DNA of 59,888 nucleotides, taken from positions 1-59,888 of IMG/VR virus record IMGVR_UViG_3300032797_000052. One strand, 5' to 3'. The notes beneath the pieces are model-generated. The model had not been told where the DNA came from and did no database searches. It saw only the letters and a list, made by a program, of their open reading frames with translations. Positions 7,841 through 58,713 of the stretch are shown one piece after another; position 1 is the first letter of the stretch; each line of letters begins with the position of its first letter. Source of the DNA: a virus. The translations under genes were made by a program, and so were the position numbers.

Positions 7841-7868
7841 ATTATACCATAGTTTTTCAGTTTGTCAA
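7841..7868 (-). promoter_or_regulatory. Sigma70 promoter for the polymerase operon
   Basis: Minus-strand TTGACA (7868-7863), 16-bp spacer, TATAAT (7846-7841), ending 27 bp before the polymerase ATG. The spacer begins AACTGAAAAA, and the AAC extension is shared with the promoters at 8410-8437 and 8455-8482. Confidence 0.75.
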
Positions 7869-7971
7869 TAGATCAAATGTTCTAATTTATCAAATTTAAA
7901 AAAAAATGTGAAGACCCCCTTTAAGATCTTTAACTCTTAAGAGTGTTAAAGAGGTAGATTCTAGATTAAAC

Positions 7972-8037
7972 GGCTTTATATAAAGCCTTATATAAAGCCG
8001 TATATAGGAGCTTTATATAAAGACATATATAAAGCCC
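7972..8037 (+). repeat. TATATAAAGCC iterons, candidate origin or control site
   Basis: Four copies of TATATAAAG(C/A)C occur in 66 bp, the first inside the perfect 16-bp palindrome GGCTTTATATAAAGCC (7972-7987). The surrounding gap 7869-8060 has no gene. It also holds a 12-bp palindrome ACTCTTAAGAGT within a larger CTTTA/TAAAG stem and an A9 run. Iterated AT-rich repeats next to the polymerase gene would suit a replication origin or an operator; the sequence alone does not say which. Confidence 0.55.
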
Positions 8038-8060
8038 ATAGAATCAGATAATATAGATAA

Positions 8061-8270
8061 TTAATCTCCCATAAATCTGTAATTATCTAAAGGTGTCCAT
8101 TCATCAGGATTAGTCTCAATCATACAACCACTCCAAAGACCCCAATGATGATCCATTCCTATATTAACTGTTTGAGCATTGCATGTAACTACGTCTAACG
8201 CAATAAAACCTCCAAAAAGACATGCCAAAACTAAAACAGTAACAAGAATCATAACTAAACTTTCGTCCAT
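8061..8270 (-). CDS. Small membrane or secreted phage protein
   Basis: 69 residues. A hydrophobic stretch at about 6-25 (VMILVTVLVLACLFGGFIAL) is a membrane anchor or uncleaved signal. The rest reads HHWGLWSGCMIE and ends WTPLDNYRF, a tail I have seen in small phage inner-membrane proteins of unknown role. GGAGG stands five bases before ATG at 8270. It is preceded by its own promoter and a structured leader about 110 nt long, unusual for so small a gene. Confidence 0.7.
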   Translation of the reverse strand: MDESLVMILVTVLVLACLFGGFIALDVVTCNAQTVNIGMDHHWGLWSGCMIETNPDEWTPLDNYRFMGD

Positions 8271-8289
8271 AGTATCCTCCTTAGATTTT

Positions 8290-8402
8290 AGGTTGGGCAG
8301 ACCAGCTTTCCTACTGGCTTGTTGTCGGCAGTTGCAGGCGGACGGACCACTATCTGTTATCTGCCCGTATCATAAGGGAGTATCTCACCTTCTGCCCAAC
8401 CT
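8290..8402 (-). promoter_or_regulatory. Structured 5' leader closed by a perfect 12-bp stem
   Basis: In the minus-strand transcript AGGTTGGGCAGA (8402-8391) pairs perfectly with TCTGCCCAACCT (8301-8290), enclosing about 89 nt. Inside are GCCAG/CTGGT closing TAGGAAAG, plus GGTGAGATACTCC and TGCAACTG. The stretch is GC-rich against AT-rich flanks, begins right after the promoter at 8410-8437, and ends ten bases before the ribosome binding site. This is the layout of a riboswitch or protein-responsive leader. The internal motifs loosely recall cobalamin riboswitch pieces, which I hold only as a hypothesis. Confidence 0.55.
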
Positions 8403-8409
8403 TGACCAA

Positions 8410-8437
8410 AGTATACTCCCATTTTGAAGTTTGTCAA
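8410..8437 (-). promoter_or_regulatory. Sigma70 promoter, leftward
   Basis: Minus-strand TTGACA (8437-8432), 16-bp spacer, TATACT (8415-8410). Transcription would start at the foot of the structured leader and read the 69-residue membrane protein. Confidence 0.7.
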
Positions 8438-8454
8438 CTAGAACATCTGTGCTA

Positions 8455-8482
8455 TTGACAAACCTTGAAACCATGCTATAAT
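8455..8482 (+). promoter_or_regulatory. Sigma70 promoter, rightward
   Basis: TTGACA (8455-8460), 16-bp spacer, TATAAT (8477-8482), about 21 bp ahead of the gene at 8504. It is back to back with the leftward promoter: GTTTGTCAA and TTGACAAAC form an inverted repeat between the two -35 boxes. Confidence 0.75.
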
Positions 8483-8503
8483 ACAACCAAAAGGAGGCCG
8501 ACG

Positions 8504-8929
8504 ATGACTGAGATGTTACTGTTGAGCAAACGTATCTTCTCCCTGATTGCGGAGTATAACGTCAACCCTCCGCCGCCGTTCTTCGTGGCGCACTCTGCTT
8601 GTCGGGCGCAGGCGTCGCGCTATCACGACGCGGCGATGGCGATTGTCCTGCCCATTGAGGACATGGAGAGGTGCATCGAGAACCTGGGGGACATATTGGA
8701 GACCTACGCTTACCGCTACGAAAAGATGGAAGATACCAAGGACGGCTACAAGGCGCTGTACGCAGATGCCCTCGCCCGCATCGAGGCGCTGGAGAAGGAT
8801 TATCACGAACTCATCTATGCCGTCGCCACAAAGTATGAGGGAGAGACAAGGCACCAAACAGCACTCCGCTACATCACAGAACGCGAGATGGGTGGCCTGA
8901 CTGCCGCCCTCGCAAAGGAGAAGCCATGA
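8504..8929 (+). CDS. Hypothetical protein, GC-rich foreign gene
   Basis: 141 residues from ATG at 8504, fixed by AAGGAGG six bases upstream; the frame open from 8465 begins inside the promoter. The protein is helical in character with an acidic, coiled-coil-like middle (YKALYADALARIEALEKDYH at about 83-102). Codons are strongly G/C-ending, quite unlike the AT-rich neighbours, which points to recent transfer. It is the first gene under the rightward promoter. Function unknown. Confidence 0.75.
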   Translation: MTEMLLLSKRIFSLIAEYNVNPPPPFFVAHSACRAQASRYHDAAMAIVLPIEDMERCIENLGDILETYAYRYEKMEDTKDGYKALYADALARIEALEKDYHELIYAVATKYEGETRHQTALRYITEREMGGLTAALAKEKP

Positions 8930-9027
8930 CTGAGACGGCGGTCGCCGTAATATTCTTTGTACTCGCCACTATCTTGATGATTGCGATGTTCATTGGATCA
9001 GACTGCGGTGGGGGGATGTGTCCATGA
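8926..9027 (+). CDS. 33-aa membrane micropeptide
   Basis: Starts with ATGA overlap on the previous stop and has the same GC-rich codon use. After MTETA, a span of about 17 hydrophobic residues (VAVIFFVLATILMIAMFIG) is followed by SDCGGGMCP. Coupled translation and a clear membrane segment support a real gene that came in with its partner. It may anchor or modulate something at the membrane; the function cannot be read. Confidence 0.55.
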   Translation: MTETAVAVIFFVLATILMIAMFIGSDCGGGMCP

Positions 9028-15793: not shown

Positions 15794-17095
15794 ATGAAAA
15801 TATTATTTATAGAAAAGAAACTAAGAACTGATAAATTAGGAATCCTTTATCTTTCCAGTATACTAAAAATGGCTGGACATGATGTTAATCTCCTACAATT
15901 TGATGTTGATAATATTCTTCTAAGATTAAAAGAGGATAAGCCAGATTTTATAATGTACTCAGTAATGTCTAGTGAGTATGAATGGTTTTTAGAATACAAT
16001 AGATTCTTAAAACTCAATTTTGATTTTATATCCGTAATGGGAGGACCACATTTTACTTTCTTTCCAGAACAAGGACTAGAGGATACTTATGTAGATTTTG
16101 TGATTCAAGGACCAGGAGAAGATATTATTTTAGGCATTGTTGAGGGAGAGTTAAAAGATAAATTAGTTGTGGGACATCTTCCAGATATCAATAAATTACC
16201 TCATCCAGACCGTTCTATTCTTTATAAATATGACGAGTTTGGTAAAGCTCGAATGAAAAGATTTATAGCAGGAAGATATTGTTTATATAGTTGCAAATAT
16301 TGTTTCAATCATTTATTTAAAAAGATTTATCAAACAGAGAAGAATCTGTTCTTTCAAAGAGTATGTCCTGACAAAATGATTGAAGAGATTGGAGAAGTAA
16401 AACATCAATATGGCCTAGAATTAGTGTATTTCAATGATGATGATTTGGCAGCAAATAAGGAATGGTTAATTGAGTTTTGTGATAAATACAAAGAAAGAAT
16501 TGGTCTTGATTTCTGTGGTTCTATTCGAGCATCTAGTGTTGATTATAATATATTAAAAATAATGAGGAATGCTGGATGTACTTTTCTGAATATAGCTCTA
16601 GAATCAGCTAATCCTGAAACTCAGAAATTTCTTCGCAGAGGATTTATTACTAATGACCAAATCAAATCAGCCTGTGATATTTGTAAGGAACTTGGAATTA
16701 AAGTTAGATTACAAAATATGATAGGTTTACCAGTTGATAACCCTCTTGAGGATGCTTTACAAACTCTTAAGATGAATCGAGAGATAAATCCAACAGATTC
16801 CTGGGCTGCTATTTTTCAACCTTATCCTAAAACAGATTTATGGAAATACTGTATTGATAAAGGTTTAATACAACCAGATACTCAAGCTGGAACTTTTTAT
16901 GAACATACTGTGTTAAATATAAAAGATGCTGATAAAATAAATAATTTACATAAATGGTGGTTCTTTGCAGTAAAATATCAATGGCCTATAGAGTTAGTAA
17001 GAATATTACTAGATACTACTTTGACAAAAGAACAAGGAATGAAACTTCAAGAGTATAGATGGGATGTAGCTAAAAATTTACTTTATGGGATGTGA
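15794..17095 (+). CDS. Cobalamin-type (class B-like) radical SAM enzyme
   Basis: 433 residues. The N-terminal ~130 residues have the Rossmann-like pattern of the B12-binding domain of class B radical SAM enzymes (GILYLSSILKMAGHDV, VMGGPHFTFFPE, DFVIQGPGE). RYCLYSCKYCFNH holds the CX3CX2C cluster motif at C163, C167 and C170, and LGIKVRLQNMIGLP is typical of the barrel. Relatives methylate or rearrange unactivated carbons. In the cassette it could install an unusual carbon modification on a sugar. Whether it binds cobalamin is not shown: the classical DxHxxG is absent, as in many relatives. Confidence 0.85.
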   Translation: MKILFIEKKLRTDKLGILYLSSILKMAGHDVNLLQFDVDNILLRLKEDKPDFIMYSVMSSEYEWFLEYNRFLKLNFDFISVMGGPHFTFFPEQGLEDTYVDFVIQGPGEDIILGIVEGELKDKLVVGHLPDINKLPHPDRSILYKYDEFGKARMKRFIAGRYCLYSCKYCFNHLFKKIYQTEKNLFFQRVCPDKMIEEIGEVKHQYGLELVYFNDDDLAANKEWLIEFCDKYKERIGLDFCGSIRASSVDYNILKIMRNAGCTFLNIALESANPETQKFLRRGFITNDQIKSACDICKELGIKVRLQNMIGLPVDNPLEDALQTLKMNREINPTDSWAAIFQPYPKTDLWKYCIDKGLIQPDTQAGTFYEHTVLNIKDADKINNLHKWWFFAVKYQWPIELVRILLDTTLTKEQGMKLQEYRWDVAKNLLYGM

Positions 17096-58319: not shown

Positions 58320-58442
58320 AAAGATGCTGTAGTTTATTGGCTTTTATCCTACAGCGTATCCTGCCTGTAACTACTAACAGGTTGTCTTTTGGTGCCCACC
58401 TATTAGGTGCTCACCGCAGAGTAGTTTTAAGCCACAGGATAG
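58320..58442 (-). other. tRNA spacer with three hairpins
   Basis: Between the Ile and Leu tRNAs lie 123 nt with three stems read on the minus strand: GGTG-AG-CACCT/AGGTG-GG-CACC, CCTGT/ACAGG closing 8 nt, and GCTGTAG/CTACAGC. ATCCTGT and GCAGGAT could close the first two like an acceptor stem. The middle lacks a normal D arm and anticodon loop, so it is not called a tRNA. It may be a processing spacer or a decayed tRNA. Confidence 0.45.
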
Positions 58443-58526
58443 TCCCACCACCGAGATTTGCACTCGGACGCCATTACTGGCTGTGGATTTTAAGTCCACT
58501 ATGTCTGCTAGTTTCATCATGGTGGG
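58443..58526 (-). tRNA. tRNA-Leu (TAA)
   Basis: Acceptor CCCACCA/TGGTGGG with discriminator A; anticodon stem GTGGA/TCCAC with loop CTTAAAA (TAA, for UUA codons); long variable arm GCCA-GTAA-TGGC typical of Leu; T arm CCGAG-TGCAAAT-CTCGG. CCA not encoded. UUA and AUA codons are frequent in this AT-rich genome, which fits the isoacceptors carried. Confidence 0.92.
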
Positions 58527-58617: not shown

Positions 58618-58682
58618 CCCACTGTTCTGAGTATAAATGGAAGTTTCTCTTACTTCAGTACATTTATACTCAGAACAGTGGG
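58618..58682. repeat. Perfect 22-bp inverted repeat
   Basis: Positions 58618-58639 are the exact reverse complement of 58661-58682, with a 21-nt loop. Each arm contains a GAGTA or TACTC copy. It lies between the leftward gene at 58714 and the tRNA cluster. No U tract follows either way, so it is not a standard terminator. It may be a regulator-binding site or an RNase III-cut hairpin. Confidence 0.7.
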
Positions 58683-58713
58683 GGAGAGGGCGAACCCGAT
58701 AGACTAGACTAGT

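Follow-up and report, generated by a model that had tools for sequence, protein, structure and literature searches.

The small gene and its promoters

The window analysed here is a virus record of 59,888 bases taken at its full length, in which the main minus-strand genes left of ~8.3 kb encode a DNA polymerase, a RecA-like protein and a helicase, and plus-strand genes lie right of 8.5 kb. A 69-codon gene occupies 8270-8061 on the minus strand, beginning with an ATG at 8270 and encoding a protein with an N-terminal hydrophobic stretch. The promoter that the original prediction had claimed at 8410-8437 proved to be near-consensus on the minus strand (TTGACA-16-TATACT at 8437-8410, 11/12 consensus), serving the small gene and its leader. 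A divergent promoter for the rightward early genes lies at 8455-8482 on the plus strand and the DNA polymerase gene has a separate minus-strand promoter at 7868-7841, both matching the consensus at 12/12 positions. Exact TTGACAAAC...TATAMT sites occur three times in the whole contig, and the three are the rightward, small-gene and polymerase promoters (TATAAT or TATACT).

Searches with the 69-residue protein gave phrog_9067 as the best PHROG match (E 0.0024), which is weak and of unknown function, and a single sub-cutoff Pfam match to OppC_N (E 0.33). PADLOC and NCBIfam held nothing above cutoff, no transporter or cobalamin family was above cutoff in PHROG, Pfam, PADLOC or NCBIfam, and homologue searches with the protein returned none.

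Over 7841-7901 and 8422-8483 the three promoters are near-identical, and two of them, the polymerase and rightward promoters, have TAGAACATNTG upstream, possibly as a shared operator; counted at one mismatch, this motif is at chance level. Direct and inverted repeats of the TTTATATAAAG type cluster at 7967-8040, in the gap that separates the polymerase gene from the small gene, near the cumulative GC-skew minimum; they may mark a replication origin, and the matching gap of a related locus (L053, described below) carries GTACATATAT repeats.

A structured leader at the predicted transcription start

The leader of the small gene is GC-rich, as had been proposed (53% G+C vs ~30-40% in most 500-nt stretches of the contig). 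A perfect 12-bp closing stem with an 89-nt interior had also been proposed, and both were found as stated: the arms AGGTTGGGCAGA (8290-8301) and TCTGCCCAACCT (8391-8402), each of 12 nt, are 100% complementary with 89 nt between them. All three internal motifs quoted in the original prediction are present as well. The 5' strand of this helix, P1 (8391-8402, minus strand), begins at about +1/+2 as one half of the perfect 12-nt inverted repeat, and its 3' strand (8290-8301, minus strand) is assigned from the inverted repeat and pair probabilities. The Shine-Dalgarno sequence AAGGAGG follows on the same strand at 8276-8282, so that the stem does end close to the ribosome binding site (RBS), the measured spacing being 7 nt to AAGGAGG and 9 nt to GGAGG and not the ten bases claimed. 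With AAGGAGG and the ATG at 8270 following it, the assignment of a structured leader to the gene of a 69-residue membrane protein was upheld.

For the 122-nt transcript segment, the minimum free energy (MFE) structure of -48.3 kcal/mol is identical to the centroid, with pair probabilities mostly >0.9. The leader is predicted to form a four-way junction closed by the 12-bp P1, in which the 5' end would be trapped. Eleven pairs of P1 have probabilities of 0.82-1.0, while for the twelfth, at 8391, the MFE gives the base to P2 instead. MFE and centroid agree on the three minus-strand elements inside P1, namely hairpin P2 (AGGUGAGAUACUCCCU, 8375-8390, pair probabilities 0.95-0.99), the long interrupted hairpin P3 (8327-8365, 0.90-0.98) and hairpin P4 (GCCAGU-AGGAAA-GCUGGU, 8301-8318, 0.87-1.0). 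P4 abuts P1 directly and both compete for base 8301. A predicted transcription start at 8402-8404 leaves 0-2 unpaired nucleotides before P1, which, with this predicted start site, is the small number expected of a leader that stabilises its transcript by sealing the 5' end.

Shuffled versions of the leader had a mean MFE of -31.5 (sd 3.8), placing the leader at z -4.4, and none of 200 shuffles was as stable. A closing helix as long with a span of at least 50 nt was found in 1.8% of 600 shuffled leaders. Of 4,000 150-nt pieces drawn at random from the contig, 101 contained a closing helix with 11 bp or more and a span of 80 nt or more. In genomes simulated with matching dinucleotide content, perfect 11-mer inverted repeats carrying at least 6 G/C and lying within 150 nt averaged 0.075 per genome. 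The real contig has several other GC-rich perfect inverted repeats, many of them presumably terminators, and the leader falls outside the top 40 most stable among 5,978 GC-corrected 120-nt windows. Since GC-rich inverted repeats occur elsewhere in the contig too, what is notable is the position of P1 at the promoter. Together, the data confirm that a structured leader is present at the predicted transcription start. The top window of the contig for GC-corrected stability contains a long perfect inverted repeat at 58618-58683.

The cumulative GC-skew minimum at ~8.5 kb and the repeats at 7967-8036 would suit a DNA element, for example part of a replication origin, instead of an RNA. We consider this extremely unlikely, as the skew also follows gene direction, which flips here, as the plus strand folded as single-stranded DNA is much less stable (z -2.4), and as one related phage (G008) has the divergent promoters and no leader.

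Riboswitch signatures and homologues of the leader

The leader had been likened to a cobalamin riboswitch, with which it shares a multi-branched structure upstream of a gene and superficial short motifs. A cmscan of 8200-8520 against all 4,227 Rfam families at E<=10 yielded no match to cobalamin or any other Rfam riboswitch family, and no Rfam ribozyme match. Two hits were obtained, both far below threshold: a C. elegans snoRNA fragment (E 0.29), which lies outside the leader, and a fragment of the JPX_1 lncRNA family (E 6). Over the whole contig, Rfam at gathering thresholds found only three tRNAs; ARAGORN assigns a tRNA-Leu at 58442-58526 that Rfam at the gathering threshold missed. An attC-like integron site, a candidate prompted by the letters of the inverted repeat, was set aside on account of a core order reversed relative to the attC consensus.

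Cobalamin riboswitches control genes for B12 transport, synthesis or B12-independent enzymes. Downstream of the leader there is no B12-related gene, the 69-residue protein being without an above-cutoff match to such a family. The cobalamin-type radical SAM enzyme that had been brought in as a possible partner is a real gene (a B12-binding radical SAM protein at 15794-17095 on the plus strand; PF02310 E 5e-18, PF04055 E 1e-16), but it lies 7 kb off, on the other strand and among glycan genes, and offers no connection to the leader. Unlike cobalamin riboswitches, therefore, the leader has no covariance-model match at E<=10, no expression platform and no B12-linked downstream gene, and the resemblance to this class failed the Infernal/Rfam check. 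The glutamine riboswitch encoded by phage Melnitz (PMC9004378) is alike in being a regulatory RNA with structure that a phage genome carries; whereas the Melnitz RNA resembles a known family, the leader of the window matches none in Rfam.

Folding of partial transcripts suggests one possible intermediate. In transcripts of 80-100 nt the 5' arm is predicted to pair with the first CUGCC, since GGGCAG and CUGCC are each present twice, and P1 wins by 110 nt. At 150 nt the competing P1' fold carries a penalty of 10.7 kcal/mol; given this penalty and the perfect 12-bp P1, the full-length RNA is expected to occupy one dominant state. RBS accessibility is equal in the main and competing folds (0.70/0.69 at 150 nt, 0.15/0.15 at 165 nt and 0.15/0.14 at 200 nt) and, combined with the 10.7 kcal/mol gap, indicates that nothing points to switching. 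When the whole P1 5' arm was held single-stranded, RBS accessibility at 150 nt was 0.46 instead of 0.70; at 165 and 200 nt, where the RBS pairs with the coding sequence regardless of the leader, it did not fall. The leader contains no terminator, and its complementarity to the RBS reaches at most 5 bp, so that no longer anti-RBS helix is possible. With P1 as the dominant fold, and with neither a terminator nor an anti-Shine-Dalgarno platform, the riboswitch reading of the leader is not supported. The helix predicted in the 80-100-nt transcripts before P1 forms at 110 nt could still serve an orphan switch, either a riboswitch or one that binds a protein, whose class is undescribed and which senses during co-transcriptional folding. 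We regard such a switch as quite unlikely: P1 looks too stable for ligand gating, the leader shows no terminator, pairs with the RBS over at most 5 bp and leaves it equally accessible in both folds, opening the P1 arm affects the RBS at 150 nt alone and not at 165 or 200 nt, and there are no homologues and hence no covariation.

The search for homologous leaders that accompanied the original prediction was run by sequence and with an RNA model, and no homologue of the RNA was found. Comparison of the leader region with phages by blastn gave four partial matches at chance level (E 0.2-0.8), and a 911-nt query against plasmids gave four short pieces (E 0.07-0.9) that we took as chance. E. coli genomes had no leader match, and exact leader patterns were found in neither viral contigs nor genome contigs. 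BLAST of the leader returned none in five related records and five chance-level matches in five further records (2 MAGs), all in one MAG (best E 1.54), while local blastn against the collected loci gave only 12-22-nt matches (best E 1.2). The RNA model, R1, is a single-sequence model, as the leader was entered in it twice. Run over the window and 30/56 collected loci, it recovered the window itself and a 20-nt match inside an open frame (E 3.5); with filters off, three loci gave 22 matches taken as chance (best E 0.28), and nine records gave none at E<=1. With no homologues there is no alignment from which covariation could be read. A printed description of the leader was likewise sought by title and abstract, and no paper was found.

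Leaders of related phages and a putative stabilising role

Related phages were sought through conserved proteins. A polymerase query gave one distant match, and 24 distant loci came from one degenerate polymerase pattern and none from another. Two useful records were reached through a RecA pattern. A terminase alignment led to two MAG contigs, and another 397 and 391 genomes from the two phyla concerned added nothing. The MAG labels, Bathyarchaeota and Brevinema, are bin names and were not taken as hosts. Terminase relatives at 68-69% (L003-L006) stop short of the early region. Three related lineages were recovered with the polymerase gene: G006/G007 (terminase 56%, polymerase 35-36%, RecA 43%, helicase 38%), G008 (polymerase 43%; its terminase contig 58%) and one that is unreadable. 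G009 was left out of the comparison on account of a tRNA-like stretch and a masked run upstream of its polymerase. In G006, G007 and G008 the polymerase adjoins an oppositely directed operon, and the shared genes are recognisable.

At the G008 locus (L053) the divergent promoters are kept, the small gene and such a leader are absent, and the polymerase leader has no 5'-sealing stem. The G006 locus (L035) has a leader of ~430 nt, with no open frame of at least 40 codons on that strand before the polymerase. Its closing stem, AAGGAUAGAAGCU / AGCUUCUUAUCCUU, opens at the predicted start and spans 92 nt; it counts 13 bp with one bulge (14 pairs by script), and 1.8% of 600 shuffles had one as long. 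Since the G007 locus (L036) is near-identical to it in the leader region, the two were counted as one. Taken as a whole, the L035 leader folds weakly (z -0.5 over 150 nt, -1.9 over 93 nt and -2.5 over 101 nt) and its centroid differs from its MFE. A second block at 436-566 forms a similar cloverleaf but was given no weight because of its z of -1.25 (-0.36 over 430-572). By RNA model or BLAST, the window and the L035 leader have no sequence similarity.

The test for a 5'-closing helix covered seven leaders, all given here; each start was placed by eye relative to the -10 element. Two of the seven, the small-gene leader of the window and the L035 leftward leader, are closed by a helix of 11 bp or more, which is only modestly above the background of 2.5-3.7%. 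The L035 rightward leader has 10 bp (8.5% of shuffles as long) and the others have 5, 2, 0 and 0; the rightward promoter of the window (8455-8482) is followed by a short leader with no closing helix or 5'-sealing stem. Given that a 5'-sealing helix of such size occurs in ~2-4% of controls, the agreement of the two leaders is suggestive only.

We tentatively propose, at a little under even chances, that the leader is a lineage-specific, constitutive 5'-end-sealing stabiliser of the ompA type on an early accessory gene. It would form the 5' untranslated part of a short transcript, made early, from which the 69-residue membrane protein is translated, and would act constitutively and in cis. The 0-2 unpaired 5' nucleotides may hinder 5'-end-dependent decay by pyrophosphohydrolase, RNase E or RNase J, the RBS would stay just outside the fold, and a strong promoter combined with a sealed 5' end could yield a long-lived mRNA. 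The start site, expression in early infection, the stabilising effect and the absence of a ligand are all what we infer. In support of this proposal, P1 is paired from +1/+2 for a start at 8402-8404 and the fold lies far below the shuffles; the sequence-unrelated L035 leader appears likewise 5'-sealed at its predicted start, which is suggestive. Against it, a single short hairpin would suffice, making a 113-nt four-way junction excessive, and the leader is not conserved, with G008 lacking a 5'-sealing stem and R1 finding nothing convincing in the relatives.

The ompA, papA and aprE stabilisers are simple stem-loops. Like them, the leader of the window carries a stem at, or directly beside, its 5' end, with an exposed RBS downstream; unlike them, it is a 113-nt four-way junction and its stabilising effect is putative. 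Titles cited in PMC3997798 refer to 5'-terminal stems protecting the papA and aprE transcripts, and a title cited in PMC8835761 to the ompA 5' stem-loop as a stabiliser. According to PMC3997798, B. subtilis RppH requires at least 2 unpaired 5' nucleotides. In phage SW1 a long 5' UTR alters transcript stability (PMC4762005), and P22 pid also has a long 5' UTR, yet it is the 3' terminator loop that PMC8835761 names as the stabilising part.

If the leader stabilises an early phage mRNA, it would be one more case of a known trick, and would carry more weight if unrelated leaders across the phage group all seal the 5' end. Such group-wide sealing, if true, would point to selection, in early infection, for escape from the 5'-end-dependent RNA decay of the host. 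That a sequence-variable but recurrent, promoter-flush, 5'-sealed junction heading the leftward early transcript constitutes a new RNA class seems distinctly improbable; leaders of such a class would target either RNA polymerase or the decay machinery of the host.

On the sense strand, the polymerase leaders of the relatives carry the strings TGCTCTTTA, CGCTCTTA and TGTTCTTTA (L035 535(-) and 436(-), L053 6901(+)), which are boxA-like by the boxA consensus; they are possible antitermination sites. The leader of the window has no boxA-like match. The nearest positional analogue of this leader is putL of HK022, likewise an early-promoter-proximal phage RNA with its first pair near +3; PMC9378689 describes a putRNA of ~70 nt that has two stem-loops and pairs from nucleotide 3. 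As there described, putRNA differs from the four-way junction closed by a 12-bp stem, and two ~70-nt stem-loops directly past the early promoter are not what the window leader presents. A put-like antitermination RNA, in which the nascent leader binds elongating RNA polymerase and causes readthrough of terminators within the leftward early region, would fit the position directly after a strong divergent promoter and the sense boxA-like 9-mer in the relatives' leaders (L035 535-, L053 6901+). It is nevertheless distinctly unlikely, given the closed junction, the lack of a boxA-like match in the window leader, the consensus promoter of the polymerase itself at 7868-7841, which makes readthrough unnecessary, and the presence downstream of only one weak terminator-like hairpin (7987-7972).

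The compact fold, paired ends and strong promoter, together with the ~430-nt G006 leader that lacks a frame of at least 40 codons before the polymerase, could also be explained by a trans-acting RNA, in which case the leader would be released, or would work as a small RNA or a decoy, with the gene incidental. A good RBS and an open frame directly follow the leader, however, with no terminator between, which makes this very unlikely. Finally, the leader may be a neutral GC-rich insertion that arrived with the accessory gene and provides spacing only. The contig is AT-rich with a GC-rich patch within 8001-9000, G008 is without the leader and no homologues were found, but the alignment of a perfect 12-bp stem to the predicted start and the z of -4.4 speak against neutrality, and we consider it unlikely. 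Also in this part of the AT-rich contig lies a rightward gene of 141 codons and ~55% GC (8504-8929), which weakly matches Synechococcus phage S-CRM01 and an uncultured podovirus (the latter at 35%, E 4e-6).
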